Assembly: GCF_932294415.1 (NCBI RefSeq)
Contig: NC_065543.1
Location: 41,438,277-41,502,276, forward strand
Source of the DNA: Quercus robur
Lineage: Eukaryota; Streptophyta; Magnoliopsida; Fagales; Fagaceae
DNA length: 64,000 nt
Direction of reading: 5' to 3'
Shown in pieces: positions 5,154-41,205 of the stretch. Each line of letters opens with the position of its first letter. The first letter of the stretch is position 1. The translations under genes were made by a program, and so were the position numbers. The notes beneath the pieces were generated by a model that was not told where the DNA came from, did not search any database, and saw only the letters and a list, made by a program, of their open reading frames with translations.

Positions 5154-5755
5154 TGATGAGGATAAAATCAGACTTGACAAAACTGACGGTATATACTTGA
5201 CAAAGCTGACGGTACAAACTTGACAAGGGTGATGAGATGTTTTGGCCGTCAGCTTTACTTCAAGGCTGACGGGGACTTGAAGCAAGAGAACACATAAAGC
5301 TGAACATCCTGAAGTTGACGGGATAAACATAGACTGACGGGATAACATAAACTGACGGCGTCAGTCTATGGAATGTTTGCTCTGCACGTTTACGTGTATA
5401 AATATATAACTTGCTCCCCACGTTTCATGAAACCTAAGGACTCCTATATGGAAAGAATCCCGTAAAATACGCCCAAGAAGACTCCTATAAGGAAAAGACT
5501 TCTACTCCAAGGAAAACGGGGGCAGCCCTCGCTACTATAAAAACCCAAGCACCCTCACAAACCAAGGTACGCATAATTTACCTTCTCTAGCACTCTAGAG
5601 CAGTGAGAATAATTCTAACTTAACCTTCGGAGGGTGTTTGGCCGGTACCACACCGGTACTCCCCGCTAGGTTATTCCTTTTCATTGTGCAGGTGCCATTT
5701 GCAAATCGTACGAGGAACGTGTGACTCACTGGTGGTATTATTTCCGGCATCATCA
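5154..5755 (+). repeat. 5' LTR of element 1
   Basis: The LTR begins TGATGAGGATAAAATC and ends TTCCGGCATCATCA. The first 200 bp hold seven TGACGG/CCGTCA hexamers. A TATA box (TATAAAAA, 5536-5543) lies in the 3' half, so transcription probably starts about 25-30 bp further on. Confidence 0.95.
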
Positions 5756-5756
5756 G

Positions 5757-5775
5757 TTGGCGCCGTCTGTGGGAA
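5757..5775 (+). other. Primer binding site of element 1
   Basis: TTGGCGCCGTCTGTGGGAA follows the LTR after one spacer base. The same 19 bases occur in element 2 in the matching place. The TGGCGCC start fits pairing with a tRNA 3'-CCA end; the tRNA species is not assigned. Confidence 0.85.
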
Positions 5776-5815
5776 TCGTTTTAGCACATTTTCGCTTCCC
5801 GGACAGAAGAGTTAC

Positions 5816-8800
5816 ATGGTATTCACTCGCTCAATGGCGACCACCAACGACGTTCAAGAAGAAGAAGCCCCTACGACCGCGCTTGAAAGACAGGTGAGGA
5901 CACTCGCCGCCGCCGTGGAGCGCCTCACCAAACAAAACCACGACCTAGAAGAGCAACTGAGACAAAAAAATGCGGTTCCCAACAACCATGGAGCAGATCA
6001 AGAAGGAACCAGCGCCGACAGAAGAAACCAGGAAGGCCCCCAGGCCAGCAACGCCCCGAGCAAACCAGAACAACAAAACACAAGCATCCCCTCCCTCGCA
6101 GAAACCACTCCGCCGCTTGTTATCGAAGAGATGCAAGCCATGAAGGAACAAATGGAGGTTATGATGAATGCTCTCAAGGGACGAGTATCAAGCGACCTTG
6201 ACGACCTTGTCAACCGAACTGACTCGCCGTTCACCGCCACCGTCAACACCTACCCTTTACCAAGTAAGTTCTGCATGCCACAGATAGACAGTTATGACGG
6301 GGTGAAGGACCCACTGGACCACCTGGAGACCTTCAAGACCCTAATGCACCTTCAAGGAGTTGCGGATGCCATCATGTGTAGGGCCTTCCCTACAACGCTG
6401 AAGGACGCAGCGAGAATTTGGTTCAGCCGACTGACGCCAAACTCCATCAGCACCTTCAAAGAGCTCAGCGCTTAGTTTACCGCACACTTCATTGGAGGCC
6501 ATCGATACAAGAAGTCTACGGCTTGCTTGATGAGTATGAAGCAGCGAGAAGATGAAACTTTAAGAGCCTACATCTCCCGCTTCAACAAAGAGGCACTCTC
6601 GATCGACGAAGCCGACGATAAGATACTTGTTGCAGCATTCACGAATGGCTTGAAGAAGGGTAAGTTTTTGTTTTCCCTATACAAAGTATATGAACGCTGA
6701 AGATGCACTGTTAGCTCGGGAAGAAAGGCCCAGGAAAAGAGAAAGGCAGGAAGACAATCGGCAGGACCAAGGCCGAAAGAAGGCAAGAACAGGAGACCGA
6801 AGGGACGAAAGGCGCCCTAAGCCCCTAGGGGGAAGGTTCACAAGCTTCACTCCGCTAACAGCCCCGATAGATCAAGTCCTTATGCAAATCAAAGATAAAG
6901 AGGCTCTGACGTTCCTGGGAAAACTGAAAAGCGACCCCAACAAACGCTCCCGGGATAAGTATTGCTGATTCCACCGCGACCACGGCCACGACACAGCTGA
7001 CTGCTATGACCTCAAGCAGCAGATTGAAGCCCTTATCAGACAAGGAAAGCTGCAGAGATTCGTTAGCAAGGAGAAAACGGATCCCCCCGAACAAGACCAA
7101 CGTCCCCGACGGGACAATAAGCGTCCGAGACCCCCGATCGGAGATATAAGGATGATTATAGGGGGAATGGCTGCCGCCGGGTCATCCAAGAAGGCCCGCA
7201 AGACCTACCTTCGAATGGTACAAAATGTTCAGTTGACGGGAGTCGTACCGAAGATAGCACGGAGAAAGGGTCCCATAATCGGATTCTCGGAAGAAGACGC
7301 GCGACGCCTTCACCATCCACATGACGACGCACTCGTCGTCAGCTTGCGTGTAGGAGATTACAATATGCACCGGGTGCTGATCGACAATGGCAGCTCAGCA
7401 GATATCTTGTACTACACAGCATTCCAGCAGATGAGGATCAACAAGGAACGACTGATCCCAACAAATGCCCCGCTTGTTGGCTTCGGCGGGAGCCAAGTAT
7501 TCCCATTGGGCGCGGTCACATTATCCGTACTTGTAGGTGATTACCCTCAACAGATAGCCAGGGACGTGACATTCTTGGTAGTTGATTGCTCGTCGGCCTA
7601 CAACGCTATCCTCGGGAGACCCACGTTCAACTCGTGGAAGGCGGTAACCTCCACCTACCACCTGATGATAAAGTTCCCAACTGACTACGGAGTAAGGGAG
7701 CTGCGCGGGAGTCAGATGGCCGCACGCGAATGCTACATAGCTATGATGGAAATGGAGGATCAGGTTCAGGCTTTAAGCATAGAAGAGCACCGGACGGTAA
7801 CGGAGCCGGTTGAGAAGTTAAAAGAGATATCCCTTGACAGTTCCGATCCTGGCCGGACAACCAAAGTTGGAACGCTCGCTAACCCCACGGTACGTCAGGA
7901 GCTCATAACCTTCCTCAGACACAATCAAGACGTATTCGCATGGGGTCATGAAGATATGCCGGGAATAGACCCTTCAGTCATGGTGCACAGGTTAAATGTG
8001 TCGCCCGCCTTTCCACCTATCAGACAGAAGAAAAGGGTGTTTGCCCCCGAGCGAGACCGAGCCATAGCAGAGGAAGTCAGAAAGCTACAGGAAGCGAGCT
8101 TCATTAGGGAAGTATACTATCCCGACTGGTTGGCAAATGTAGTAATGGTCAAAAAGGCGAGTGGGAAATGGCGAATGTGTGTGGACTTCACCGATCTTAA
8201 CAAGGCCTGCCCCAAGGATAGCTACCCCCTCCCGAGGGTTGATGTCCAAGTAGACTCTACAGCCCGACACCAGTTGCTGAGCTTCATGGACGCTTTCTCG
8301 GAGTACAACCAAATCCGAATGCACGAAGCCGACCAGGAGAAAACGTCATTCGTGACTAGCCAAGGCCTCTTCTGTTACAAGGTAATGCCCTTCGGCCTGA
8401 AGAACGCAAGCGCAACGTACCAAAGGCTCATGAACAAAATGTTCGCGCAACAGATTGGGAGGAATGTCCAGGTCTACGTCGACGACATGCTAGTCAAAAG
8501 CCGAAGGGAGGAAGATCATCTAGGAGATCTCAAAGAAACATTCGACACACTTCGCTCCTACAACATGAAGCTCAATCCGGGGAAATGTGCCTTTGGAGTG
8601 ACAGCAGGAAAATTCTTGGGTTTCATGGTATCTCAAAGGGGAATCGAGGCAAACCCGGACAAGATCCGGGCCATTATGGATATGGCACCACCAAGAAATG
8701 TGAAGGAGGTGCAAAGCCTCAATGGAAAGATAGCGGCGCTGAATAGGTTCGTGTCAAGGGCGACGGACAAATGCTTGCCCTTCTTCCGTACATTAAAGAA

Positions 8801-11006
8801 ATCCTTCGAATGGACTGACGAATGCCAGCAAGCCTTTGAAGAACTGAAGGCTTACCTCTCCTCCCCACCACTGCTAAGCCCGTCGCAGCCAGGAGAAGAA
8901 CTTTTCCTCTATCTAGCCGTTTCCCCCGCAGCCGTTAGCGCGGCCTTGGTCAGAGAAGAAGAGAAAGTACAAAAACCCGTGTACTACGCAAGCCGAGCGC
9001 TTCACGGTGCCGAAGAAAGATACCCGCCCATGGAGAAACTTGCCTTCGCATTAGTTACGGCAGCCCGTAAACTCAAACCATACTTCCAAGCTCATACTAT
9101 AAACGTCCTGACTGACAAGCCCTTACGACGGGCAATGAGCAGCCCCGAGGCCGCAAGACGATTGGCGCTATGGGCTATAGAGCTGAGCGAATTTGACATT
9201 CAGTATCGCCCGCGGACCGCCATCAAGGGACAGATCGTCGCCGACTTCATAGCTGAGTTCACTCAGGAAGAGGACAAGGGGGCAACAGAGTCCCCTCAAT
9301 GGAGCATATATACGGACGGATCGTCCAACAGGCAAGCCGCAGGGGCCGGCATTATGCTACTATCGCCAGAAGGAGACACCATCGAATGTATGATCCGTCT
9401 CGACTTCCCTGCCACCAACAATGAATCGGAGTATGAGGCTCTGATAGCGGGGCTTGACCTTGCCAAAGCAGCAGGAGCCGCGAGGGTAGTCATATATTGC
9501 GATTCACAGGTCATCACTAACCAAATAAACGGAGACTACGATTGCAAGGGCGAAAAGATGAAAAGGTACCTTGATGAAGTAAGGACAAGGGTGGGTGACC
9601 TCGAAGCAAAAGTCATCCAGATTCCCAAAGAAGAAAACGAGAGAGCCGACCGTCTCGCGAAGGCCGCTTCAGCTGAACAAATTGTCATCCCTGGTAATGT
9701 ACTCTCTTTCGTACAGCTTTCCCCGCTAATAGATCTCAGCAACATGCAGGAAATATGCTCCGACAGTAGCTGGACGGCGCCGTTAGTTTCGTACCTAAAA
9801 AACGGGATCTTACCAGACGAGAAGGAAGCCGCAAGGAAACTTAAAGTCCAGGCGGCGAGGTTCGTCCTGATAAAAGACGTCCTGTATAAAAGAGGTTTCT
9901 CCCGACCATATCTGAGATGCTTGGGTACGGAAGAGGCAGACTATGTCATGAGAGAGGTACATGAAGGAATCTGCGGAAACCACTCAGGGTCTAGATCGTT
10001 GGTACACAAGCTTGTGCGAGCAGGGTATTATTGGCCCACCATGCAGAAGGACGCCGAAGCCTATGTCAGGGCCTGCGATAAATGCCAAAGGTTCAGCAAT
10101 ATTATTAGACAACCAACCAAAGAGCTGACCCCGATGACAGCCCCATGGCCGTTCGCACAGTGGGGATTAGATATTATGGGACCATTCCCTACAGCCGTAC
10201 GACAGCTAAAATTCCTGGTAGTAGGCATCGACTATTTCACAAAATGGGTGGAAGCTGAAGCTTTGGCAACAATTACAGAAAAGAACGTGCGGAGCTTTGT
10301 TTGGAGATGTATCATATGTAGGTTTGGCATTCCTAGAGTCTTTGTCTCGGACAACGGGAGACAATTCGACAACGACCCCTTCCGGGATTTTTGCTCACAG
10401 TTAGGAATAAAGAACCACTACTCCTCCCCCGCCCACCCTCAAGCTAATGGACAGGTCGAAGTTACAAACCGATCCTTGCTCAAGATTATCAAGACTCGGC
10501 TCGAGGGGGCAAAGGGTATATGGCCCGAAGAATTGCCAAGCATACTATGGGCATACAGGACGACGGCAAGAACACCCACGGGAGAGACACCGTTCCGCCT
10601 GACGTACGGGGGCGAAGCAGTTATCCCAGCCGAAGTTGGACTCACAAGCTACAGGGTGCACAACCATGATGAGAACAAAAACGACGAGGCTATGCGACTA
10701 CAGCTCGACCTAGTGGACGAGATCAGAGCAGCAGCAGAACAAAGGCTCGCCAGGTACCAGGACCGCATGGCCAAACACTACAACTCTCGAGTCCGACATA
10801 GAGACTTCCAAGTTGGAGACCTTGTTCTTAGAAAGGTCATGGGTGCCGCTAGGGACCCTACTCAAGGGAAACTCGGCCCCAATTGGGAAGGACCTTACCG
10901 AGTTACTTCGTGGCAGAGAAAAGGTACTTACCACCTAGAGACATTCGAAGGACAGAAGCTACCACACCCATGGAACGCCGAACACCTACGGAAGTATTAC
11001 CAATAG
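5816..11006 (+). pseudogene. gag-pol of element 1, disrupted
   Basis: Gag starts at 5816 (MVFTRSMATTND), aligned with the gag start of element 2. It has a coiled-coil-prone N-terminus and the retrotransposon Gag core (DPLDHLETFKTLMHLQG). Three lesions break it: TAG at 6473-6475 (CAG in the sister copy), a 44-bp deletion with its junction at about 6683-6686 that shifts the frame, and TGA at 6966-6968 (CGA in the sister copy) inside the zinc knuckle. From 6969 the frame is open to 11006, covered by the separate pol entry. Gag and pol would otherwise be one continuous frame, as in element 2. Confidence 0.9.
7152..11006 (+). CDS. Open pol region of element 1: protease, RT, RNase H, second RNase H, integrase
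   Basis: This is a 1284-codon open frame. The 7152 ATG is internal to the ancestral gag-pol and is not a natural start. Aspartic protease is at about 70-160 (IDNGSSADIL, D78). Reverse transcriptase is at about 300-480 (CVDFTDLN, then YVDD at 442-445), followed by RNase H at about 585-700. A second, archaeal-type RNase H at 715-840 (YTDGS D722, NNESEYEAL, CDSQ D784, RADRLAK D833) is a mark of Tat elements. Integrase has an HHCC finger (H937, H944, C975, C978) and the catalytic triad D1007, D1067, E1103. In the RT motif MDAFSEYNQI a glutamate replaces the glycine seen in element 2, which could weaken the enzyme. Confidence 0.92.
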   Translation: MIIGGMAAAGSSKKARKTYLRMVQNVQLTGVVPKIARRKGPIIGFSEEDARRLHHPHDDALVVSLRVGDYNMHRVLIDNGSSADILYYTAFQQMRINKERLIPTNAPLVGFGGSQVFPLGAVTLSVLVGDYPQQIARDVTFLVVDCSSAYNAILGRPTFNSWKAVTSTYHLMIKFPTDYGVRELRGSQMAARECYIAMMEMEDQVQALSIEEHRTVTEPVEKLKEISLDSSDPGRTTKVGTLANPTVRQELITFLRHNQDVFAWGHEDMPGIDPSVMVHRLNVSPAFPPIRQKKRVFAPERDRAIAEEVRKLQEASFIREVYYPDWLANVVMVKKASGKWRMCVDFTDLNKACPKDSYPLPRVDVQVDSTARHQLLSFMDAFSEYNQIRMHEADQEKTSFVTSQGLFCYKVMPFGLKNASATYQRLMNKMFAQQIGRNVQVYVDDMLVKSRREEDHLGDLKETFDTLRSYNMKLNPGKCAFGVTAGKFLGFMVSQRGIEANPDKIRAIMDMAPPRNVKEVQSLNGKIAALNRFVSRATDKCLPFFRTLKKSFEWTDECQQAFEELKAYLSSPPLLSPSQPGEELFLYLAVSPAAVSAALVREEEKVQKPVYYASRALHGAEERYPPMEKLAFALVTAARKLKPYFQAHTINVLTDKPLRRAMSSPEAARRLALWAIELSEFDIQYRPRTAIKGQIVADFIAEFTQEEDKGATESPQWSIYTDGSSNRQAAGAGIMLLSPEGDTIECMIRLDFPATNNESEYEALIAGLDLAKAAGAARVVIYCDSQVITNQINGDYDCKGEKMKRYLDEVRTRVGDLEAKVIQIPKEENERADRLAKAASAEQIVIPGNVLSFVQLSPLIDLSNMQEICSDSSWTAPLVSYLKNGILPDEKEAARKLKVQAARFVLIKDVLYKRGFSRPYLRCLGTEEADYVMREVHEGICGNHSGSRSLVHKLVRAGYYWPTMQKDAEAYVRACDKCQRFSNIIRQPTKELTPMTAPWPFAQWGLDIMGPFPTAVRQLKFLVVGIDYFTKWVEAEALATITEKNVRSFVWRCIICRFGIPRVFVSDNGRQFDNDPFRDFCSQLGIKNHYSSPAHPQANGQVEVTNRSLLKIIKTRLEGAKGIWPEELPSILWAYRTTARTPTGETPFRLTYGGEAVIPAEVGLTSYRVHNHDENKNDEAMRLQLDLVDEIRAAAEQRLARYQDRMAKHYNSRVRHRDFQVGDLVLRKVMGAARDPTQGKLGPNWEGPYRVTSWQRKGTYHLETFEGQKLPHPWNAEHLRKYYQ

Positions 11007-11886: not shown

Positions 11887-12836
11887 ACAAGGTCCTAAAA
11901 ACTGACAGACCAAAAAGGTGTCAAAAGACATCAAGGCCAAGGCCAAGAAGCTGACGGTCCGAAAAAGCTAAAAGCTAAAAGGCTGACGGTCCAATAAGAT
12001 GGCGCAACCATCATGTGGACAAGGTCCTCAAAACTGACGGACCGACAAAGATGTCAAAAGACATCGCCTTAAAACTGACGGACTAAAAAGGTGTCAAAAG
12101 ACATCAAGGCCGAAGCCAAGAAGCTGACGGTCCGAAAAAGCTAAAAGCTAAAAGGCTGACGGTCCAATAAGATGGCGCAACCATCATGTGGACAAGGTCC
12201 TCAAAACTGACGGACCGACAAAGATGTCAAAAGACATCGCCTTAAAACTGACGGACTAAAAAGGTGTCAAAAGACATCAAGGCCGAAGCCAAGAAGCTGA
12301 CGGTCCGAAAAAGCTAAAAGCTAAAAGGCTGACGGTCCAATAAGATGGCGCAACCATCATGTGGACAAGGTCCTCAAAACTGACGGACCGACAAAGATGT
12401 CAAAAGACATCGCCTTAAAACTGACGGACTAAAAAGGTGTCAAAAGACATCAAGGCCGAAGCCAAGAAGCTGACGGTCGGAAAAAGCTAAGAGCTAAAAG
12501 GCTGACGGTCCAATAAGATGGTGCAACCATCATATGGACAAGGTCCTCAAAACTGACGGACCGACAAAGATGTCAAAAGACATCGCCTTAAAACTGACGG
12601 ACTAAAAAGGTGTCAAAAGACATCAAGGCCGAAGCCAAGAAGCTGACGGTCCGAAAAAGCTAAGAGCTAAAAGGCTGACGGTCCAATAAGATGGGGCAAC
12701 CATCATGTGGACAAGGTCCTCAAAACTGACGGACCGACAAAGACGTCAAAAGACATCGACTAAAAACTGACGGATCAAAAAGGTGTCAAGACATCAAAGC
12801 CAAGGCCGAGAAAATGACGGTCCGAAAAGGCTAAAA
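11887..12836. repeat. 173-bp tandem repeat array, about 5.5 copies, in element 1
   Basis: The marker CCATCATGTGGACAAGG recurs at 12008, 12181, 12354, 12527 and 12700, an exact 173-bp period with few mismatches. Each unit contains four TGACGG hexamers, so the array alone has about 20. Tandem repeats behind pol are known for Tat-lineage elements and can seed satellite DNA. The array ends in a poly-A run at about 12838-12859. Confidence 0.95.
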
Positions 12837-13110
12837 CTAAAAAAAAAAAAAAAAAAAAACTGACGTATTCCAACCAAGAGCTGTAAACCGACGATCATAA
12901 AGCTGACGGGGTTTTCAACAGTTGAAAGAACTGACGTATTCCAAGCAGACGGGAATTTTTAAAGGGATAAAAGCTACCGAAATAAAATACATGTGCAACT
13001 GTACATAAAACGACAAAGGCACTTAAACATGGTTTAAAACTACAACTGTTTAAAAATTACAACTGTTTTCCAAAAAAATTAAAAAGCAACAGTTTTATAC
13101 ATAGCTACAA

Positions 13111-15315
13111 TTAAGCAGCAGGAACGTCAGCAGGGTTGCCGTCAGCCTGATGATCTTCAACATCCACGATCACGGCTGGAGAATCAGAAGTTGTAGGGTT
13201 AGCGGCAGGCTGTGCCAGGACTACACTGCCGTCATGCTCCGGAGTAGGGCCAGGCTGAGGAGAGCCGTCGTCTCCATCATCCATTGTAATCCCAGACAAG
13301 TCCAGCTCCGGGAAGGCTGACGCGACCTGTCGAAGGCAATCATCGAACCCAGTGCCGTAATACTGACCACATGAGTCGATAAAAGACTGCGACGCTTTGA
13401 AGTCTCTAATCGCGTCAGTCCCCGCCGTCTGTAACTTCTCCTCCAGAACCGTCACTTCTCCTTGGAGCTTGTCGTTCTGGCCACTGACCGCCGTCAGTTT
13501 TTCCTTAACCTCCTGCAGCTCCTGGTTAAGGAGACGGACGACTTCCTTGTACTGAGCCTGCTGATTCAACAGGTTCCTGTTGTGGCTACGAACTCGGCTG
13601 ACGACCCCCTCCTTCGCCACACAACGGTCACGAAGGGCCTTGACACGAACCAAGGCCTAAAAGAACGCATCCGTCAGTTAAAAAGTACACCAAAACAAGA
13701 TACGGCATGTTCAACCCAAAAATGTGAGAAACCTACCCTGGAGGGATCAAAGAGGGCCGACGCCCCTAAATCCTCCGTCCCCACTTGGTCACAGGGCTCC
13801 ATGTCCGTCGGCTTTATCAGAGATTCAACCTCCCCGACGGCATATTCCTTGTGGGTTAGGAGACGGCACGGACCCTCGTTGACGGGACCAGTGGAAATCA
13901 TCACCCCCTTTCCCACGCCATGGCTAGACTTCGGAGGAGACTTTTCCTTCAATGGTTCGTCTGCAGGAGTGACGGCAGTCTTTTTTGATGGACGGCCGTC
14001 ACTCCCTTCAGGTTTCCTCTTCGCCACTATGGCGACGGCATTGGGGGTTGACGAGGCTTCCCCTCCTGCCTCCTTAGCCTTCCTCTCTTCCTTCTGACGA
14101 GCTGCGGCGGCCCATATCCTTTGCTTCGCGGATTCCATCTCTACAACACAAGGAAGACAATTGGGGAAAGGGACAGAAAAAATAAAACTGACGGGAAAAT
14201 AAAAGTCTACTCACGTCGGCGCGCAAACTCTTCCAACCTATGAGCTTCCGCTGACGGATCTGGACCCCCACAGTATAAATGGAGGGTGTCAAGGGTGATC
14301 AAATCCCTGCACTTGCGATCTTCCAAAGGGATTTCTAGAACCCGTTGGATGAAGCCCTCCTGCTCGTCAGTTATGTGCAGACGGGTATAAGCTGAAAGAA
14401 ATAAGAAGTGTTAGTACCGTCGCCTCAAAAAACACACGAGCCTCATAGTTGACGGGATTAACCTGAATCCCTGACAAAGGCCCAGGTGTTGTCAAAATAA
14501 CCGCGGGGCATCGTCGCCCACTCCTCCTGACGGCAAACCCAATCCGTCCCTTCAACATAAAAATACCTACTCTTCAAGTTCCTATTTGAGTCTGGCATAT
14601 CTGACACTAGCCGTAGCCCTTTCTCCCGGGCATTAAAGTGATATGTCCCCTTAGACGAGGCGATGTGGTGAGGCCTATAACAATAAAAGAATTCTCCTAA
14701 TGAAAGCTGACGGTGTCCTCCACTAAGACTGCCCCATAGGATTTCAGATCCTATAAAAGTCCTCCAGGAATTTGGGGCAACCTGGGTGACGGATATTCCA
14801 AGAAAGTCAGCAAGTTGACGGTGTAGAGCCGTCAACGGTAACCTCAGGCCCGCAGCAAACATGGCATCATACATGCCGACGTCAGCTGTCCTCCCGGAGT
14901 AACACCTCTCACCCTCTCTAGGGAGACGGATGGGGATGTGGTCTGGGATTTGGTAACGAACCCGCAACTCCCTAAAAACTTTACCACTCATCCCAGGCAA
15001 AAATTTGTTGATGGCCCAATCCTCAGGAAGAATGAAGGGACGGTTATCTCCAGGACCCTCCGAGGTTCCTTAACTGGATCTCTCATCCCCGTCACTATCC
15101 TCTCCGTCAACATCCATTCCATCCCCGTCGTTTTCATCCCCTCTTCCCTCATCCTCATCTCCCTCAGCAAAACTCTCATCGCCATCAGGAGATTGGGCTG
15201 ACGACTCTCTCTCTGACGGGAGGGAGAAGTCTGACTCGTTTCCAGAACCAAAGGTTTCGTCGTAGCCCGCTCCTTCGCGGACTGACGACTCGTCACAAGA
15301 CGCGTCACTCGACAT
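13111..15315 (-). pseudogene. Antisense spliced gene of element 1 (aORF), one internal stop
   Basis: Four coding exons run on the minus strand: 15315-14463, 14391-14215, 14140-13737 and 13656-13111. GT-AG junctions and phases (1, 1, 0) are identical to those of the homologous gene in element 2. Spliced length is 660 codons. Exon 1 encodes an acidic Ser/Asp/Glu-rich head and a conserved domain (YQIPDHIPIRLP, FLGISVTQVAPNSWRTF, YHFN). Exon 3 is Lys/Pro-rich. Exon 4 is a coiled coil ending in GFDDCLRQVASAFPELDLS. A TAA at 15070-15072 interrupts exon 1. The conserved domain resembles the plant 'putative gypsy type transposon' family (from memory, PF04195). Molecular function is unknown. Confidence 0.8.
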
Positions 15316-15323
15316 CTGACTAC

Positions 15324-15426
15324 CTACAAATGACGGGCTCAAACTAAGTACCTAGGCTGACGGCCTCACTAATGAGGCAAAAATAAAAAAGAAAAAGAAG
15401 GAAGGAGAGAGGAGATGAAAACTTAC
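15324..15426 (-). other. Intron in the 5' leader of the element 1 antisense gene
   Basis: On the minus strand a GTAAGT donor (15426) and a TTTGTAG acceptor (15324) lie just upstream of the ATG at 15315. Element 2 has a leader intron in the equivalent place. Confidence 0.55.
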
Positions 15427-15561
15427 CAGTACGGAGGCCTTCTGGATGGCTCTAAAGGCAGCAACGAATAAACTGACGGAAGTGAAGCTGACGAAAGGTA
15501 GACGACGGTCTTTCTCTCCAAGATCAGCAAGGTTGGAATAGTGAAAAATGACTGGAAAGTG

Positions 15562-15600
15562 CTGTTTATATATGGAAAAAAATGGCGCGGAAGACGAAGC
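15562..15600 (-). promoter_or_regulatory. TATA box of the element 1 antisense gene
   Basis: On the minus strand CCATATATAAACAG (about 15564-15577) lies roughly 140 bp upstream of the leader donor site. Its position matches the TATA box of the element 2 antisense gene. Confidence 0.55.
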
Positions 15601-15738
15601 GACGTCTCGTCAGAAGCAAAGCCAATAAGAACGAGCCACCTGTCCAAGGTATTAAATGCACAGATCCACGCAAACAATATCCCTGCCTCTTTTGAAAACA
15701 AACTCCATAACCCGTCAGTACATAGTCTGACGGAGGTA

Positions 15739-15754
15739 TGGAGTAGGGGGCAAG
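15739..15754 (+). other. Polypurine tract of element 1
   Basis: GGAGTAGGGGGCAAG directly abuts the 3' LTR, the standard plus-strand priming site of LTR retrotransposons. Confidence 0.8.
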
Positions 15755-23906: not shown

Positions 23907-23914
23907 GTTACATG

Positions 23915-25110: not shown

Positions 25111-25336
25111 GTGCCTTGTTGACATACACACCCTGCCTTGATTTTCTAACTCTGTTGTGGGTGTTTCTGTAGCTTTCTCGGCTATTAAGCTCTTGACTGT
25201 ATTCACATTTAATGTTCAGCAAAATATATAGGGACCGTGTTGAACTTAAAGTGCTTTATTTATGTAAAATTTTCTTTTCCTTGCTTGGTAACAACCATAT
25301 CAAGTAAGTTTGGTTGTGAGCCAATGTAATACTTAG

Positions 25337-25383
<47 letters not shown>

Positions 25384-30948: not shown

Positions 30949-31437
30949 TGATGACGTCGAAAATTGTCACCAATGGGTCACACCGTACTCGCGACTCGAA
31001 TCGAACCTGCACGACAGAAGAAATCGAAAGAATCCTTCAGAGAGCACCGGTGTGGGGCCGGCCAAAGGCTCTCCGACGGTCAAGTTAGAATTCTTCTACT
31101 TTACTTAGAGCGTTAGAGAGGGTCAATTAAAGCGTACCTCGATTTCTGAGGGTGGCAGGCCTTTTATAGTGGCAAAGGGTTGACTTTTCTTCTTGGTTTC
31201 CAAATCTTTTCCATGTGGGACTCTAATACAAATTCCTCTGAGCGTGGTGAGCGAGGATTTCCATTTTGGCTCTTAAGGCTTTTCTAGGCGATATGGACCT
31301 CGGATCATGGGCCCTTACTACGTCTGTCAGCAATGGGCCTTTAAAGTGCAGGGGATCATCTTTATACAGGCCCACCAGTTCCGATCCGTCAGGCCCATTA
31401 AGGTAGGCCCATCAGGCTCTATATTTTACCATCTTCA
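30949..31437 (-). repeat. 3' LTR of element 2
   Basis: On the minus strand it begins TGAAGATGGTAAAATA and ends TTTTCGACGTCATCA. It is 489 bp and shares terminal words with the LTR of element 1. Confidence 0.95.
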
Positions 31438-31454
31438 GTTGCCTCCTTCGCCCC
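31438..31454 (-). other. Polypurine tract of element 2
   Basis: On the minus strand GGGGCGAAGGAGGCAAC abuts the 3' LTR. Confidence 0.75.
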
Positions 31455-31879
31455 AATGGTCCGTCACCTTTTAGGTCAAAGGATCAATGGGGTGACGATC
31501 CTTACGTATGGTATGACGGTCATTTTATGACGGATTCATCAAGATAGGACGACGGTTCCAGATGGATCAACCCGTCAGAGGAAGATTCATCAAGTTGACG
31601 GTTACATGAGGAACACAAACCTGTTGGTACGTACTGACAGGTTGTCAGCATTTATTAAGCATGCCACGTGTCACTCTCTGAATGGTCGTTGTATAGGATC
31701 GAAGCGTCGCTTCGTCTTCCGTGCACCTCCTATATATATAAGGCGCCTCACTCTCTCATTTTTCAATTTTCACTCAGAAATCATTTGTCAGAGCGAAGCC
31801 GTCAACCTTGTCAGAGTAATCCGTCAAGGACGAGCATCTACTGATTACACCAACCGTCACCTCTCCTCTGCTAAGTTTG
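31455..31879 (+). promoter_or_regulatory. Promoter and leader exon of the element 2 antisense gene
   Basis: A clear TATA box (CCTATATATATAAGGC, about 31728-31743) is followed by a pyrimidine-rich leader. At least eight TGACGG/CCGTCA hexamers lie within about 420 bp. The leader ends at a GGTAAGTG donor at 31880, and a leader intron runs to TTGTAG at 31998, just before the ATG. The promoter points away from the LTR and against pol. Confidence 0.65.
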
Positions 31880-32001
31880 GTAAGTGCTTCTAATATACTA
31901 TAGTCAAGTTACATTTCCGTCCATGCATTGTTGTTAGGCTTTCCATACCCGTCAATACTTTCAAACCCGTCGGTCTTAGGTTTCATTGCCAATTGTAGGA
32001 A

Positions 32002-34140
32002 ATGTCTAGTGCGTCAAGTAACCAGTCGGTGGTTCGTGATGGGACGGAATACGAGGATGTATACCCGTCCGGTCATAAAGACCAAGAGAGCCCCGGCGAA
32101 GATAGGAGTCCGTTTGCCTCCTCTTCATCCTCAACAAATGAGGATGTGGAGATAGTTGAAATAGAGGGTTCTGATGACGACGGGGATCAAGCACTGGAGT
32201 CCGTCGTAGGTGCTGATGGACTAAGGCAGTTCATCATGTTGCCAGAGTGGACGGTGCATAGGTTTACATCCGTCATCAGGGAGAAACATTTCAGCACCTT
32301 CAGAACCAACTTCCAAATCCCTGACTATGTTTCCATCCGTCTACCATACGCGTCGGAGAAGTGTTACTATGAAGGGGTAGACGGTGTCGGAGTGTACGAG
32401 CAGGCGTTGAAGGCTGGACTTCGATTCCCGCTTTCTACACTTCATAGGGAACTTTTACAGTATCTGGGGTTGTCCGTCACCCAGATATCCCCTAACGCCT
32501 GGAGGGTCTTCATAGCCATGGAGATTCTTTACGGTGCAATGTCAGATGGGGAAAGGAAACTGACGGTCCGTGAATTTCTTCACTGTTACCGTCCAGACGA
32601 GATTTCTGGATCAAGGGGGATGTATAGTTTTGCTAGTCGGAGCCCCTTGTTGAAGGTGATCTTTGAGACCCCAGACTCAAATAGAGACTGGAAGAGTCGC
32701 TACTTCTTCCTGGAGGGTGACAGATGGATGAACCATCCAGGGGAGACGGATTACATGCCCGTCGACACAACTTGGGCAGTGATAAATCAATCATGTATGC
32801 ATCCGTCTTAATTTTGTAAAGCTTTTCATATCCGTCCATTTTTATGTGTATATCTTGATCGTCTCTCTCTGCAGGTAGACGGCGCCCACAAGTCAGCCTT
32901 GAGGAGTTTAGTTTCCTTGAAAAGATTTACAGGAAAACTACGCCGGAGGAAAGGACTTGGGCTAAGTTGGTGAACCCGAGGACCATACATTGGTACTGCG
33001 ACGGTCCTGAGCCCACCCAAGAGGCAATTAGATACGATGAACGAGTTCATAGACGTAAGCCCGTCAACTTTACTTTGCCATTTAACTGACCTTACTTAGT
33101 TTTAATTTCATCTGTCATTATTTGCAGAGATGGAGGACGCAAAAAGGAGAGCTTTGATCAAATCCCAAGCCGTCAAGAAGAGGGAATCCGGCGAGGTGGT
33201 GCCTAAGGTGTCGGCTTCAGCCCCTAAGAGGAAACCGACATCAAAATCCGACCGTCCATTTAAGCAACCAAAGGTCTCTCTTGAACCTGTGGTCGGTTTA
33301 ATGGCTGAGGGTAACAAAACCGTCACCCCAGCGAAGCAGGGGACGGGTAAAGGATTGATGACGGCCCCAGACAGTAAGCAAGAGAGACCTCCTTCCCTTC
33401 TCCGCGACGACTCCAAGTATGCATTGGAGAAGCTGTCGTCCATCATCACGGCGGAAGACTATGAAGATCTGGGAAACCATTCGACGGAGGCCATGGGGGA
33501 GACGGGCCTCTTTGCCGTCGCTCAGGTTGGTTATGTCCGTCAAATAAGTTTATTTTTCTTTTTCGTTGTTATTTACATTATGTGACGGTCTCTTTTCTAT
33601 TCGCAGTCCTTGGTTATGATGAAGGGACTACTGGATCGGTGTCTCAACCGTGAGAGTACCTTGGACCGGGTGCGCGCGAAGGCGGAGCAGACGGAGGAAG
33701 AGCTCGGACAACTCCATAAATGGAGGTCCAAGATGGAGAAGAAGCTGGAGCTTTCTGAGAAGGCAAGGAAGGAGCTGGAGGAGAAGACGGCCTCTGCGCT
33801 GACGGTCATAGAGAAAAAGGAGGCGGAGATCAAAGAACTCAAGGAGGAGATCCGTCATGTGAAAGAGGTAGCCGTCGAGGAGTACCGATGCTCTGAGTCC
33901 TGCTTGGGCAAGCTGTCAGATTCTTTCCTTCAAGGCTTCGATGATTCTCTCCGTCAAGTCAAGAAGGCCTATCCAGAGCTGGATTTGTCAATGGTCAAAC
34001 TTGAGGACCAAGCCCAGACTTCTGCCCTCCCCGTCGCCTCCGAAAATACGGAGGACCTCTTTGGCGAAGGCGCTGCTCAAGGAGACGGAGAGTCCGCCCC
34101 GTCGAAGGATGTCCAAGTCGCTGAACAAAAGCAAGATTAA
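32002..34140 (+). CDS. Intact spliced antisense gene (aORF) of element 2, 634 aa
   Basis: The coding exons are 32002-32794, 32875-33054, 33128-33525 and 33607-34140, with introns of 73-81 bp, all GT-AG. They join in one open frame (phases 1, 1, 0) ending in TAA. Exon 1 has an acidic Ser-rich head and the conserved domain (FQIPDYVSIRLP, YLGLSVTQISPNAWRVF, CYRPDEI). Exon 2 carries TIHWYCDGPEPTQEA. Exon 3 is Lys/Arg-rich, possibly a nuclear localisation region. Exon 4 is a long coiled coil ending GFDDSLRQVKKAYPELDLS. The homologue in element 1 shares exon borders. Function is unknown; the architecture suggests a nuclear, self-associating factor. Confidence 0.85.
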
Positions 34141-34539
34141 TGTCTATGTAATTTATTTTAAGAACAATCCGTCCTTTCTTTTTTTTTTTTTTTATTGACA
34201 TTTCAGAACAATCCGTCCTCTTTAATTGTACTAAACACTTGCCTTTGGGGCTTTTGGCTTAATGTTCATATATGTTTTCTATCATTGTTTGGTATTTTGT
34301 TTAAAGGTCCGTCCTCCTTCTTGAGGAAGGATTTTTGTGAGAATATTTGTTTCTGTGATACTCCGTCCACATTGCAGACTTGTTATCTTGTGTTGATTGA
34401 GCATTTACATCCGTGAGGATTTTCCTTTGCCGTCTATTTTTAGAGGTTCATGATGAGGAACCGTCCACTTTGTGACGTTGTACATCACTTTTTAAATGTA
34501 ATGCCTATTTAATGGACTTGTAAAAAATTTTAACGTAGT
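34141..34539. other. Spacer between the antisense gene stop and the repeat block in element 2
   Basis: This is probably the 3' UTR of the antisense gene. CCGTCC words begin here (34169, 34211, 34311, 34362). No coding sequence is seen. Confidence 0.5.
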
Positions 34540-35250
34540 CAGTGGTCCGTCCACTTCGCTTGTATGTTCTTCCATTATTTCCGTCCACCTTGTGGACTTG
34601 AGTTATCATCCCTGTAGGATGTCATCATCCCTGTGGGATGGCCCGTCGGCCTTGTGGACTTTATTTTATGTCCGTCCGTTTAAGGACTCACGGTGATCGC
34701 CCTTGTAGGATGATCCGTCCGTCTTGTGGACTTTCGATTGTATCCGTCCACCTTGTGGACTTGAGTCATCATCCCTGTTGGATGGTCCGTCCATCTTGTG
34801 GACTTTATTTTATGTCCGTCTATTTAAGGACTCACAGTGATCGTCCTTGTAGGACGATCCGTCCGTCTTGTGGACTTTCGATTGTATCCGTCCACCTTGT
34901 GGACTTGAGTCATCATCCCTGTGGGATGGTCCGTCCATCTTGTGGACTTTGGCTACTATCCTTGTAGTATGATCCGTCCATCTTGTGGACTTTATTTTGG
35001 GTCTGTCCATTTTATGGACTGACAGTGATCGTCCTTGTAGGGTAATCCGTCCATCTTGTGGACATTTTGTGTCCGTCAATTTTGTGGATTGAGGGCGATC
35101 GTCCATGTAGGGCGATCCGTCCACCTTGTGGACTGCATTTATATCCGTCCATCTTGTGGACTTGAATGATTATTCCTGTAGTGTCTTATCATCCCCGTAG
35201 AATGATCCGTCCATCTTGTGGACTTTACTTAGTTTCCGTTAATTTTGTAG
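34540..35250. repeat. Minisatellite of CCGTCCATCTTGTGGAC units in element 2
   Basis: The motif CCGTCC[A/G][T/C]CTTGTGGAC recurs about a dozen times at 33-72 bp spacing, separated by words such as ATCATCCCTGTGGGATG and GATCGTCCTTGTAGG. A higher-order copy of about 144 bp is visible (34657 and 34801). It occupies the same place after pol as the 173-bp array of element 1 but is unrelated in unit length. Open frames crossing it are repeat artefacts. Confidence 0.9.
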
Positions 35251-35428
35251 ACAATTATAATGACATCCAAGTAGAAGATCAAAGTAATATCTGATTATAG
35301 AAATGCGTAAAGGAAAAAAGTGCCTGCCCCCTTTGGGCTTAAAAAGGGCACAACAAAATTGTAGCAAAAAGACAGTTAAAAGAGAAACTTATAAAAAGCA
35401 TAAACAAAAACTGGTTGCCGTGTCACTA

Positions 35429-38400
35429 CTACTGGTAGTATTTCCTCAAATGCTCGGCATTCCATGGATGTGGCAGCTTCTCTCCCTCTGTTGTCTCCAG
35501 GTGGTACGTTCCTTTCCTTTTCCATGACGTAACTCTATAAGGTCCTTCCCAGTTGGGGCCGAGTTTTCCCTGTGCAGGGTCTTTAGTTGCACCCATGACC
35601 TTCCTGAGCACGAGATCTCCAACTTGGAAGTTTCTATGTCGGACCCGGGTGTTGTAATGTCTGGACATGCGATCCTTGTACCTAGCGATTCTTTGCTCCG
35701 CCACCGACCTAACCTCATCTATCAGGTCCAGCTGTAGCCTCAGGGATTCGTCATTCCTGCATTCGTCATGGTTGTGAACCCTGTAACTTGTGAGTCCAAC
35801 TTCTGCTGGGATGACCGCCTCGCTCCCGTATGTCAGTCGAAATGGCGTCTCTCCTGTCGGAGTCCTCGCCGTTGTCCTGTATGCCCATAATATGCTCGGC
35901 AATTCTTCGGGCCATATGCCCTTTGCCCCCTCGAGCCGAGTCTTGATAATCTTTAACAGGGATCGGTTCGTGACTTCAACCTGGCCATTAGCCTGAGGAT
36001 GGGCGGGTGATGAGTAGTGGTTTTTTATTCCTAGCTGAGTGCAGAAATCCCGGAAGTGGCCGTTGTCGAACTGCCTCCCGTTATCTGAGACAAGAACTCT
36101 TGGAATACCGAACCTGCATACGATGCACCGCCAGACAAAACTTCTAATGTTTTTTTCTGTAATGGTGGCCAAGGCTTCCGCCTCTACCCATTTTGTGAAG
36201 TAGTCGATACCCACTACCAAGAACTTCAGCTGCCTTACCGCCGTTGGGAAAGGTCCCATGATATCTAGTCCCCACTGAGCGAACGGCCATGGAGCCGTTA
36301 TAGGGGTTAGCTCCTCAGCTGGTTGTCCGATGAAATTGCTGAACCTTTGGCATTTGTCGCAGCTTTTAACGTAAGACTCGGCATCCTTCTGCATGGTTGG
36401 CCAGTAATACCCAGCTCGTACCAGTTTGTGCACTAACGAGCGCGATCCGGAATGGTTCCCGCATATTCCTTCGTGTACTTCCCTCATTACGTAGTCTGCC
36501 TCTTCAACCCCGAGACATCTTAAATAAGGACGGGAGAAACCTCTCTTGTAAAGAATGTCTTTTATCAAGACGAACCTTGCCGCTTGGACTTTTAGCTTTC
36601 TCGCTGCCTCCTTCTCTTCTGGCAGTATCCCGTCCTTTAAGTATGAAGTTATCTGCGTAGTCCAGTTTCGTTCGGAGCGTATCTCCTGCATGTTGTCGGG
36701 GTCTATTAGCGGAAAGATTTGAACAAAGGAAAGTACATTACCCGGTGTCATCATATGTTCTGCTGAAGCGGCTTTGGCTAGCCGATCGGCGAGCTCATTT
36801 TCTCCCCTGGGGATCTGGACGAACATTGCTTTTAGCCCGTCGACTCTCGCCCTTACTTGATCAAGATATATCTTCAACCTTTCCCCTTTGCATTCATAAT
36901 CTCCGTTTACTTGATTGGTCACGACTTGAGAGTCGCAATGCACGACCACACTTTCAGCTCCGGCGGCTTTGGCTAGGTCGAGTCCTGCTGCCACCGCTTC
37001 GTATTCTGCTTCATTGTTGGTAATGGGGAAGTCGAGACGGACCATACATTCAATATTGTCTCCTTCAGGCGACAGCAATACTATGCCGGCTCCTCCAACT
37101 CGCTTATTGGATGATCCGTCGGTGTAGATGTTCCACTGGGGGGGTTCTTCTGCCCCCTTGTCCGCGTCACGCGTAAACTCTGCTATGAAGTCGGCTACAG
37201 CTTGTCCTTTAATGGCCACACGTGGACGGTACTTGATTTCAAACTCACTCAATTCTATTGCCCACAGCGTCAGTCGACCCGCGGCTTCAGGACTACTCAG
37301 TGCCCTTCGCAAGGGCTTGTCGGTCATTACGTTCACAGTATGGGCTTGAAAGTAGGGTTTGAGCTTGCGAGCCGCCGTGACCAACGCAAAAGCGAGTTTC
37401 TCCATAGGTTGGTATCTTTCCTCGGCACCGCGGAGCGCCCGGCTGGCGTAGTACACGGGCTTCTATGCCCTGTCCTCCTCTCTGATTAAGGCCGCGCTGA
37501 CGGCCACCGGGGAGACAGCCAAATAGAGGAAGAGTTCTTCACCTGGTTGCGAGGGGCTCAGTAGAGGAGGTGAAGATAGATAGGTTTTCAACTCCTCGAA
37601 GGCTCGCTGACACTCGTCCGTCCACTCGAATGACTTCTTCAATGTTCGAAAGAAGGGTAAACACTTGTCCGTCGCTCTCGACACGAATCTATTCAATGCC
37701 GCTACCTTGCCGTTAAGGCTCTGTACTTCCTTCACGCTTCTCGGGGGGGCCATCTCCATTATGGCTCGGATTTTGTCCGGGTTAGCTTCAATCCCCTTTT
37801 GAGATACCATGAATCCTAGGAATTTGCCTGCCGTTACACCGAATGCGCACTTTCCCGGATTGAGTTTCATGTTGTAGGATCGAAGTGTGCCGAATGTTTC
37901 CTTAAGATCTTCCAAGTGGTCTTCCTCCTTCCGGCTCTTCACCAGCGTGTCGTCGACATAGACTTGGACATTCCTCCCGATTTGCTGTGCGAACATCTTG
38001 TTCATTAGTCTCTGGTATGTTTCCCCTGCATTCTTCAGTCCGAATGGCATTACTTTATAACAGAAGAGTCCTTGACTGGTTACAAACGAAGTTTTCTCCT
38101 GATTGTCCTCGTGCATGCGGATCTGGTTATAACCCGAGAAAGCATCCATGAAGCTTAGCAATTGGTGTTGAGCCGTCGAGTCTACTAGGATGTCGACCCT
38201 TGGAAGGGGATAGCTATCTTTGGGGCATGCTTTGTTAAGATCGGTGAAGTCCACACACATCCGCCATTTGCCGCTCGTTTTCTTCACCATTACCACATTC
38301 GCCAGCCAATCGGGGTAGTAGACTTCCCTGATGAAGCTTGCCTCTTGGAGTTTGCGAACCTCTTCCGCTATTGCTTGGTCTCGTTCCGGGGCGAATACTC

Positions 38401-40663
38401 TCTTCTTTTGTCGGACGGGTGGATACGAGGGCAACACATTCAACTTATGTACTATGACCGAGGGATCGATTCCTGGCATATCGTCATGGCTCCAGGCGAA
38501 CACATCCTTATTGCTTCTCAAGAAAGCTACGAGCTCTTGACGGATTGCAGGTTTGGCAAGCGTTCCGATCTTGGTGGTTCGATCTGGATTGGAACTATCG
38601 AGAGTTATCTCCTCTAGCTTCTCTGTAGGTTCTGCCGTCGTTCGGTGTTCTTCTATGTTCAAGGCCTGTATCTGGTCTTCCACCTCCATCATAGCTACGT
38701 AGCATTCTCGTGCGGCAATTTGACTTCCGCGTAGCTCTCCTACCCCATACTCCGTTGGGAACTTGATCATCAGGTGGTAAGTTGATGTTGCCGCCTTCCA
38801 CGAGTTGAGCGTGGGTCGTCCAATAATAGCATTGTAGGCTGACGAGCAATCGACCACCAAGAATGTTACGTCCTTGGTGATTTGTTGGGGGTAATCTCCT
38901 ACTGTCACCGATAACGTGACTGCGCCCAAAGGAAATATTCTACTCCCTCCGAAACCAACGAGCGGGGCGTTTGTCGGTATTAGCTGCTCCCTGTCAATCC
39001 TCATTTGTTGGAACGCCGGATAATACAAGATGTCGGCCGAACTACCGTTGTCGACCAACACTCGGTGGATATTGTAGTCGCCTACCCGCAAGGTGACGAC
39101 GAGGGCATCGTCGTGTGGATGGTGTAGGCGTCTTGCATCCTCTTCCGAGAACCCGATGATGGGGCCTTCCCTTCTTGCCATCTTTGGCACTGTACCCGCC
39201 AACTGGACATTCTGTACCATCCGAAGGTATGTTTTGCGAGCCTTTTTCGACGATCCGGTCGCGGCTGTTCCTCCAATTATCATCCTTATGTCCCCTAATG
39301 GGGGTCTTGGTCGTTCGTTTTCTCGACGGGGGTGTTGTTCTTGTGGGGGTTGATCCGTTCTCTCCTTGCTGACGAACTTCTTCAGCTTCCCTTGTCGGGT
39401 AAGGGCTTCGATTTGTTGCTTCAAGTCGTAGCAATCGGCCGTATCGTGACCATGGTCACGATGGAAGCGGCAATATTTGTCTCTGGACCTTTTGTTGGGA
39501 TCACTCTTCAGCTTTCCCGGAAACGTCAGGGATCCCTCGTCCTTAATCTGCATTAGGACTTGGTCTATCGGAGCGGTCAACGGGGTGAAACTTGTGAACC
39601 TTGCGCCCATGGGTTTTGGACGTCTCTCCTCCCTCCGATCTCCCATTCTTCCTTTCTTCCGCCCCTGGTCCTATCGGGGATCCTCTTGTCTGTCTCTTTT
39701 CTTGGGTCTATCTTCTCGGGCTAATAGTGCGTCTTCAGCGTTCATATACTTGGTGGCCCTGTAAAGTACCTCCGACATGGTCTTTGGGTCGTTTTTGTAT
39801 AGGGAAAACAAAAACTTACCCCCCTTCAGTCCGTTCGTGAACGCTGCCACCAGTATCTTGTCGTCGGCTTCGTCGATCGAGAGCGCTTCTTTATTGAAGC
39901 GTGATATGTAGGCCCGTAACGTCTCCTCCTCTCTCTGCTTGATATTCATTAAACAAACCGTGGATTTCTTATACCGATGTCCTCCGATGAAGTGCATAGT
40001 GAATTGAGCGCTCAGCTCCTTGAAGGTGCCGATGGAGTTTAGTGTTAGCCGGTTGAACCAAATCCTTGCTGCGCCCTTTAGGGTTGTAGGGAACGCCCTG
40101 CACATAATTGCGTCTGCCACTCCCTGAAGGTGCATCAGGGTCTTGAAGGTCTCTAGGTGATCGAGAGGGTCCTTGATTCCGTCATAACTATCCATACTTG
40201 GCATGCGGAATTTACTTGGCAGGGGGAAGGAATTGACGGATGCCGTAAATGGCGAGTCAGTCCGGTTGACAAGGTCGTCAAGATCACTGGACACTCGCCC
40301 CTTGAGAGCGTTCATCAGTACTTCCATCTGTTCCTTCATCGCCTGCATCTCCGCGATGATGGGTTGTGGAGCTGTATCCGTCACTGAAGGGATGCTAGCG
40401 TCCCGTCGCACTTATTTGCTTGGGGCGTTACTCTCCTGTGGTCCGTCATGATTCCTCCTTTCAGCGCTGGTTCCTTCTTGATCCGCTCCTTGGTTATTGA
40501 CGGCCGCACTCTTTTGGTTCAGCTGCTCTTCTAGGTCGTGGTTTTGTTTTGTGAGGCACTCCACGGCTGCGGCGAGCGTCCTGACCTGTCTCTCAAGGGC
40601 AATCGTAGGGGCTTTCCCTTCCTGAACGTCGTTAGTGGTTGCCATCGAGCGTGTGAGTACCAT
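35429..40663 (-). pseudogene. gag-pol of element 2, one frame with three stop codons
   Basis: Reading from 40663 (MVLTRSMATTND) to 35429 gives 1745 codons in a single frame. It is interrupted only by TAA at 40414-40412 (codon 84), TAG at 39673-39671 (codon 331) and TAG at 37465-37463 (codon 1067). Domains are Gag, a CX2HX4HX4C zinc knuckle (CRFHRDHGHDTADC), protease (VDNGSSADIL), RT (FSGYNQI, YVDD), RNase H, second RNase H (YTDGS, NNEAEYEA, CDSQ, LADRLAK) and integrase (HHCC, GLDIMG, VSDNGRQF, NGQVEV). All catalytic residues I checked are present. Stop codons replace CAG, CAG and probably CAA. There are no frameshifts, so gag-pol appears to be a true single ORF in this lineage. Confidence 0.92.
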
Positions 40664-40696
40664 GTAACTCCTTTGTCTAGGAAGCGATAGTTTGAT

Positions 40697-40715
40697 TTCC
40701 CACAGACGGCGCCAA
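40697..40715 (-). other. Primer binding site of element 2
   Basis: On the minus strand TTGGCGCCGTCTGTGGGAA lies one base from the 5' LTR, identical to element 1. Confidence 0.85.
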
Positions 40716-40716
40716 C

Positions 40717-41205
40717 TGATGACGTCGAAAATTGTCACCAATGGGTCACACCGTACTCGCGACTCGAATCGAACCTGCACGACAGAAGAAATCGAAAGAA
40801 TCCTTCAGAGAGCACCGGTGTGGGGCCGGCCAAAGGCTCTCTGACGGTCAAGTTAGAATTCTTCTACTTTACTTAGAGCGTTAGAGAGGGTCAATTAAAG
40901 CGTACCTCGATTTCTGAGGGTGGCAAGCCTTTTATAGTGGCAAAGGGTTGACTTTTCTTCTTGGTTTCCAAATCTTTTCCATGTGGGACTCTAATACAAA
41001 TTCCTCTGAGCGTGGTGAGCGAGGATTTCCATTTTGGCTCTTAAGGCTTTTCTAGGCGATATGGACCTCGGATCATGGGCCCTTACTACGTCTGTCAGCA
41101 ATGGGCCTTCAAAGTGCAGGGGATCATCTTTATACAGGCCCACCAATTCCGATCCGTCAGGCCCATTAAGGTAGGCCCATCAGGCTCTATATTTTACCAT
41201 CTTCA
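40717..41205 (-). repeat. 5' LTR of element 2
   Basis: It is 489 bp, with a minus-strand TATA box (CACTATAAAAGG, about 40932-40943) that would drive gag-pol. The TCCAA duplication follows at 41206-41210. Confidence 0.95.

Follow-up and report, generated by a model that had tools for sequence, protein, structure and literature searches.

The stretch analysed here, called the window, comprises 64,000 nucleotides of the Quercus robur genome (contig NC_065543.1; G000:C39:41438277-41502276), and carries two young Ty3/gypsy long terminal repeat (LTR) retrotransposons, element 1 on the plus strand and element 2 on the minus strand. In both, the pentamer GACGG is packed into the DNA between pol and the 3' LTR, a region which also holds an antisense gene for a TRP28 protein, and related families of the same genome lean to GACGA in its place. 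From these sequences we suggest, at a probability of about 0.55, that the TRP28 protein of each family binds its own variant of GACGR and activates or un-silences the copies that match it, in the manner of the VANC proteins of VANDAL transposons though with an unrelated protein. Self-recognition of this type had been proposed in a first-pass annotation of the window. The idea passes the sequence tests, namely excess over shuffled and codon-shuffled sequence, presence in both orientations in exons, turnover of sites, conservation of the core and a last base that follows the clade, whereas TRP28 as the binder and activation or anti-silencing as the outcome are what we infer from them.

The LTRs of element 1 are 98.8% identical (target site duplication CATAA) and those of element 2 are 99.0% identical (TTGGA). 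In each element gag-pol is followed by a pol-3'LTR region, of about 4.7 kb in element 1 and about 4.0 kb in element 2, which consists of a tandem array and the antisense gene. The frame at 6969-11006 of element 1 has Pfam matches to RVT_1, RT_RNaseH, rve and H2C2, indicating a Ty3/gypsy-type pol; the pol frames of element 2 are 85-87% identical to it, and inverted matches between the two gag-pol regions extend over 4334 nt and 901 nt. Judged by sequence, both elements are organised like Retand (Tat) Ty3/gypsy retrotransposons, including the antisense TRP28 (PF04195) gene known from that lineage. The features are the following.

Element 1 5' LTR, 5154-5755, plus strand: seven GACGG at 5185-5354, in the U3 part upstream of a TATA-like box near 5536 (7 against 0.75 expected).
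Element 1 gag-pol region, 5756-11006, plus strand: low GACGG density (14 against 10.0 expected).
Element 1 tandem array, 11894-12842, plus strand: 173-bp unit in 5.5 copies, with 21 GACGG, all on the element sense strand.
Element 1 antisense TRP28 gene, 13111-15315, minus strand: exons 15315-14463, 14391-14215, 14140-13737 and 13656-13111, exon 1 being interrupted near 15070 by an in-frame TAA.
Element 1 region from antisense ATG to 3' LTR, 15316-15754: six GACGG and a TATA-like box 257 bp before the ATG.
Element 1 3' LTR, 15755-16356, plus strand: seven U3 sites as in the 5' LTR.
Element 2 3' LTR, 30949-31437, minus strand: two GACGG, not enriched.
Element 2 region from 3' LTR to antisense ATG, 31438-32001: 12 GACGG and, about 271 bp ahead of the ATG, a TATA-like box.
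Element 2 antisense TRP28 gene, open, 32002-34140, plus strand: exons 32002-32794, 32875-33054, 33128-33525 and 33607-34140.
Element 2 spacer between gene and array, 34141-34620: eight GACGG, all on the element sense strand.
Element 2 tandem array, 34621-35260, minus strand: 72/144-bp unit, with 17 GACGG, all on the element sense strand and 16 of them followed by A.
Element 2 gag-pol region, 35429-40711, minus strand: 21 GACGG against 11.5 expected.
Element 2 5' LTR, 40717-41205, minus strand: placed by LTR pair identity and target site duplication.

The motif had originally been described as the hexamer TGACGG (CCGTCA on the other strand). Recounting gave the same figures of seven copies in the first 200 bp or so of each element 1 LTR, 24 in 13093-15754 and 21 in 31438-34140, and found 21 in the 173-bp array, four per unit as described except for three in the first. 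In gag-pol, where 2.4-2.7 were expected, element 1 has the three copies reported and element 2 has seven rather than about six. None of 300 dinucleotide shuffles reached the TGACGG or GACGG counts of the exons, the introns or the 5' flanks of the antisense gene in either element, and the host flanks contain 5 TGACGG in 42.5 kb (4.2 expected). The enrichment is common to both elements as claimed, but the shared unit is the pentamer, TGACGG being the usual form of element 1; as a basic unit the hexamer was rejected, the array of element 2 having 17 GACGG and one TGACGG. GACGG is the top of the 490 pentamers common to the two 3' regions when both elements are required, with 45 against 5.8 and 62 against 6.3 expected (-log10 P of 21.9 and 35.7); in element 1 alone the overlapping CGTCA ranks slightly above it. 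On the same scale, and with simple repeats set aside, the most extreme pentamer stood at 10.7 in a set of 13 host windows, each 3.1 kb long and two of them overlapping, and at 4.9 in four gag-pol windows.

Along each element the density of GACGG stays high all the way from the array to the 3' LTR, and in element 1 only this plateau continues into U3. Per kb, for elements 1 and 2 respectively, there are 15.2 and 16.8 sites in exons, 17.8 and 21.4 in introns (in element 2, 5 against 0.14 expected) and 13.7 and 21.3 in the antisense 5' flanks. Most parts outside gag-pol have values of 11.6-26.6, with 26.6 in the element 2 array, while the stretch between array and gene in element 1 has 7.5, the element 2 LTR 4.1, gag-pol 2.7 and 4.0, the host flanks 0.3 and the spacers adjoining pol none. 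An enrichment confined to the DNA outside gag-pol, as first claimed, thus holds for introns, exons, flanks and arrays, but not for the element 2 LTR, and gag-pol is not motif-free. In element 2 gag-pol TGACGG occurs 7 times against 2.6 (reached by 6/300 shuffles) and GACGG 21 times against 11.5 (1/300); for the 14 GACGG of element 1 the figure is 38/300. In three pol frames synonymous shuffles gave 11 against 5.5 (7/1000), 8 against 3.4 (14/1000) and 6 against 4.0 (147/1000). The densest part of element 2 gag-pol is the gag end with the LTR edge (40179-40850), where five TGACGG lie within 40179-40498 and a further one at 40842. Outside the exons the cores tend to come after A-rich DNA and differ in their neighbours between the elements, being preceded by T in 16/19 cases in element 1 and 12/25 in element 2 (Fisher 0.025; exons 0.07) and followed by A in 3/19 and 13/25 (Fisher 0.025; exons 0.59).

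The exons hold 30 GACGG in element 1 and 32 in element 2, against 9.9 each in shuffles which keep amino acids and codon counts fixed and of which none in 1000 reached these numbers; GACGG is the top pentamer of both antisense genes under this control. Codon or amino-acid bias is excluded by these shuffles for elements 1 and 2, and only partly for the clades A and B described below. The exon sites show no strand bias (16:14 and 16:16), and each strand taken alone is in excess over synonymous shuffles, with 14 against 6.5 and 16 against 3.4 in element 1 and 16 against 6.8 and 16 against 3.0 in element 2 (0/2000 each). This bears on the possibility that the motif acts in the genomic RNA, with Gag or the machinery for splicing or export as its reader, or serves some other function of a self-encoded protein. 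In the gag-pol transcript the pol-3'LTR region makes up the 3' part, both arrays are wholly in sense orientation, and noncoding GACGG outside the arrays and the element 2 LTR lie on the element sense strand in 35 of 44 cases (p 1e-4). One RNA strand would not select for an excess on each exon strand, however, which disfavours a reading by RNA only, and we regard the RNA-level explanation as quite improbable.

The sites have been kept in number rather than in place. Elements 1 and 2 are 78.6% identical in gag-pol and 49.5% in the antisense gene, while U3 and the other noncoding parts are at or slightly above the level of shuffled sequence and the array units share a sole match of 12 bases (E 0.49), in agreement with the earlier description of their LTRs and repeats as diverged. 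Among 29 alignable exon sites of element 1, five coincide with sites of element 2, against 0.35 in shuffles. A few exon sites thus appear to be old or held by the protein and most do not; the density of GACGG seems to have outlived the surrounding sequence, positions having turned over at equal density.

Within a family the core is conserved. In 29 copies of the element 2 family (L040-L068), with sites and control CpGs both picked as intact in the window copy, 59 of 2835 CpG bases inside GACGG were changed (2.1%) against 247 of 4520 at other CpGs (5.5%; p 1.8e-13). In their noncoding DNA the figures were 26/986 and 63/1015 (p 1.2e-4), and noncoding core bases outside the CpG were changed in 24/1478 cases against 924/19630 for other bases. 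Comparison of element 1 with three copies gave 16/240 changed CpG bases in GACGG and 87/543 elsewhere. Since the copies share history, these p values do not come from independent events. Either selection or a lower rate of methylation-driven mutation where sites are bound could account for the conserved core.

A search of the 786 Mb genome with PF04195 listed 150 places, of which 30 were fetched (L009-L038), together with 8 hand-picked loci (L074-L081). The fetched TRP28 loci fall into clades A and B, whose TRP28 exons are 29-38% identical to those of elements 1 and 2 (where at least 80 residues aligned) and whose pol is 51-76% identical to element 1 over five stretches. These other copies with an antisense gene also show the excess, in a GACGA-leaning form: per locus there are 11-36 GACGA against 2.2-5.9 expected and 1-13 GACGG against 1.9-4.7. 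Sorted by best TRP28 match, all 38 A and B loci (26 A and 12 B) are more enriched in GACGA than in GACGG, while GACGG leads in 36 of 37 element 1 and 2 rows (32/32 for element 2, whose window copy is entered twice, as E2w and as L039, and 4/5 for element 1). The base before GACGA is T in 42% of cases in A and G in 65% in B. As GACGA can encode Asp-Glu, the upstream DNA of these clades was counted apart, and the family bias is clearest there: at 901-1500 nt upstream of TRP28 the counts are 115 GACGA against 19.4 and 6 GACGG against 14 in 21 A loci, and 38 GACGA against 7.2 in 7 B loci. L009 and L021 stand outside the A and B sets of the upstream and frame counts, and inside the comparison of 38 loci.

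When 22 rows selected from the loci and element rows above are placed on a TRP28 tree, the motif label needs two changes, and none of 500 shuffles was as low, a result which near-copies help; the deep split has a support of 100/100, with a long-branch warning from the program. An exception is L085, an old relative of element 1 (TRP28 79%) with 22 GACGA against 4.4 and 10 GACGG against 3.6. Another element 1 relative (TRP28 81%), at G000:C1:8905706-8906314, has GACGA triple clusters 2-3 kb off and no GACGG ones listed there, and is perhaps a second switched copy like L085. Genome-wide, counting overlapping matches and all kinds of sequence, there are 6227 triple clusters of GACGG against 1519 of the reversed pattern and 8277 of GACGA against 3630; several of those listed are paired 9-10 kb apart, a spacing like that of LTR pairs. 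The element 2 relative L086 (G000:C1:5434100-5437400; TRP28 77% identical) has 54 GACGG against 6.9, and the clusters near C1:5434255 and C1:5444138 at this locus resemble LTR arrays, which element 2 does not have. Similar tandem-array units with AAGTCCACAAAGTGGACG, in G-ended and A-ended forms, are found at G000:C1:2106682-2107326 and G000:C1:1163916-1164037.

A neutral origin, through the spread of short repeats or through a biased mutation process, for instance the loss of methylated C, would draw on the copying of the motif by the arrays and on GACGG and GACGA being one C-to-T change apart, in CHG context on the other strand. The sites are nevertheless dispersed in both orientations and run through open coding exons, and their core is more conserved than other CpGs. 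Decay of the CpG is disfavoured as the source of GACGA, for its products are not raised like GACGA in 12 A and B loci (GATGG 0.7-1.8 and GACAG 0.2-0.9 times expected). We hold this to be the least probable of the explanations.

The sites might also be read by a host transcription factor, either a TGA factor of the basic leucine zipper (bZIP) type on TGACG or an unnamed one, and be used by the elements as an enhancer. The as-1 sites bound by TGA bZIP factors have a TGACG core and are typically TGACGT. TGACG is contained in the usual form of element 1 (35 of its 52 GACGG), and sites for host factors are known in LTR retrotransposons (PMC2829016). At TGACGN sites the next base is G in 35/52 (element 1) and 21/25 (element 2) and T in only 4 and 1. 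The element 2 array has one TGACG to 17 GACGG, 12 of the latter being GGACGG, so that the TGA alternative raised by the first-pass annotation is disfavoured. Exons are as dense in sites as noncoding DNA, and families within one nucleus lean to different last bases, which a single host factor would not readily explain and self-encoded readers diverging with their sites would. We thus consider a host factor unlikely, though less so than the RNA-level and neutral explanations.

The preferred reading, in which TRP28 is the reader, would work as follows. GACGG in elements 1 and 2, or GACGA in the related families, would be a putative double-stranded DNA site, accumulated in the pol-3'LTR region of the family and in some families also in the LTR U3. 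Its most likely reader would be the family's own antisense TRP28 protein, with its acidic N-terminus, its TRP28 domain, its basic KRKP-type stretch and a coiled-coil-like part which appears suited to dimers. Sitting on many sites around the antisense promoter, and in U3 where they are present there, TRP28 would activate the copies matching its variant or keep them unsilenced. Elements may in this way recognise themselves by sequence, because each carries an antisense gene whose protein may read the tag. The same binding could have the opposite sign, with TRP28 repressing its own element or gene as a control of copy number or dose. Sites flank the TATA-like box of the antisense gene on both sides, which fits autorepression too, yet the genome holds at least 150 TRP28 exons of element 2 type at 95-100% identity, no sign of tight limitation; repression seems to us about as improbable as an action in RNA.

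The same four-exon structure can be modelled for the antisense genes of both elements. Their PF04195 matches, of 22.5 bits (E 1.4e-4) in element 1 and 25.3 bits (E 1.8e-5) in element 2, are both under the curated cut-off of 26.2; the proteins are related to clade A and B exons which pass it. Besides the acidic N-terminus and the TRP28 match both proteins have the KRKP-type stretch and a part whose coiled-coil matches are weak, and 221 of 621 aligned residues are identical between the two proteins. In exon 1 the copy of element 1 has a frame of 203 amino acids where many of the listed relatives have about 297-316, and its in-frame TAA therefore looks private. A search of PDB by sequence gave two matches (E 0.6 and 0.78). 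No relatives were confirmed in viral contigs and genome contigs, and plasmids gave three records with distant reverse transcriptase matches. In the accessible part of PMC11963269 DNA binding is predicted for TRP28, 97% of the surveyed Retand clusters with recent activity are reported to have antisense TRP28 genes, and the role of these genes and of the tandem arrays is called unknown; a nuclear location is reported for the antisense protein of the maize element Grande (PMC7264820).

Several results weigh against the preferred reading, in which TRP28 would bind the variant of its own family. The element 2 LTR shows no enrichment (two GACGG in 493 bp, reached by 43/300 shuffles), and the strand bias of noncoding sites is not explained by simple DNA binding. 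The upstream DNA of the 7 B loci has a secondary excess of GACGG (16 against 5.8). Among the TRP28 frames of these clades, taken as the Pfam frame, 10 of 21 in A and 4 of 7 in B reached 450 nt and were counted against synonymous shuffles: the A frames have 38 GACGA against 18.5 and 32 GACGG against 12.1, so GACGG is raised at least as much, and the B frames have 26 against 10.3 and 17 against 7.9. In the pol-side spacer two A copies have 8 and 6 GACGG to 5 and 5 GACGA; in two B copies there are 15 and 16 GACGA to 0 and 1 GACGG. Enrichment extends to the pol frames of both clades (GACGA 24 against 13.3 and 21 against 7.8, and GACGG 14 against 5.7 in one B frame). Given these mixed exon, spacer and pol results, what is recognised is probably GACGR, with a bias by family, and the code is not a clean one. 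Because loci within a clade are copies related to one another, only about two or three changes of motif count as independent, and as the motif follows the lineage of the whole element, any co-inherited factor would track it too.

Comparison with known systems is made here on the available portions of the reports cited. Retand elements (PMC11963269) share gag-pol, the long pol-3'LTR region, tandem arrays and the antisense TRP28 gene; their defining pol-3'LTR length of 2.9-6.6 kb with an antisense open reading frame includes elements 1 and 2, and that text differs in giving no target motif for TRP28. VANC21 (YAGTATTAY) and VANC6 (AGTTGTMC) are related proteins which bind different short motifs, built up in the elements that encode them, and cause demethylation (PMC5735166, PMC10398659). 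As here, the motif has accumulated in noncoding DNA and arrays of the element itself and differs between related families. The element-encoded nuclear protein would have its candidate counterpart, by analogy, in TRP28. VANDAL is a Mutator-like DNA transposon with the motif in noncoding DNA, whereas the present elements are LTR retrotransposons with a CpG-containing motif which is also in exons. TnpA (PMC10398659) is likewise encoded by a transposon, Spm, whose activation and demethylation have been linked to it; Spm, unlike elements 1 and 2, is a DNA transposon. Sireviruses (PMC2829016), also LTR retrotransposons of plants, carry short motifs in high copy number which contain CpG and differ between elements and which lie, as here, upstream of an extra gene and, within the LTR, upstream of the TATA box. 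They are Ty1/copia elements with symmetric motifs of a CGG-CCG signature, while GACGR, including GACGG with its extensions, is asymmetric, runs through exons and accompanies a Ty3/gypsy pol; in the available text no element protein is proposed to read those motifs.

The rest of the window has features of its own. A diverged host repeat flanks element 1 on both sides in four to five copies (4.0-5.1, 17.9-18.5, 20.1-21.0, 22.4-22.8 and 25.0-25.9 kb), and GCCCA is frequent at 22600-25699 (22 against 4.8 expected). At 27501-27755, outside elements 1 and 2, GTTGACGG occurs three times in a purine-rich, minisatellite-like tract. CGATC occurs 15 times against 1.4 expected at 44400-47499, where the 21-bp tandem repeat GGCTCGATCGATCGAAGCTCA lies at 45793-45837; CGATCG-rich GACGA clusters are also present at G000:C1:2117935-2118175. 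The segments 44688-44987 and 45303-45602 form a 98% direct repeat, 615 bp apart, each copy of which starts in poly-A.

The Retand plan with its antisense TRP28 gene was already known; the GACGA lean of TRP28 clades in the same genome is new. No report of a GACGR code was found in the open-access literature, as covered by titles and the starts of abstracts among the matches listed, with subscription papers and supplements outside; a TGACGG string in an Allium paper is a polymerase chain reaction primer and not a report of the motif. More tentatively than the preferred reading, we propose that the TRP28 proteins of Retand families read different versions of a GACG-R code, each written over the family's own pol-3'LTR DNA including exons, that many families may thereby coexist within a single nucleus, with separate activation or anti-silencing circuits, and that this invention would be independent of VANC. 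If true, the finding would give a testable function to both the antisense TRP28 genes and the tandem arrays, and a retrotransposon lineage would have evolved a VANDAL-like self-recognition with a different protein. The GACGG and GACGA clades would then be natural swaps for the mapping of specificity, and perhaps a source of new sequence-specific epigenome tools.

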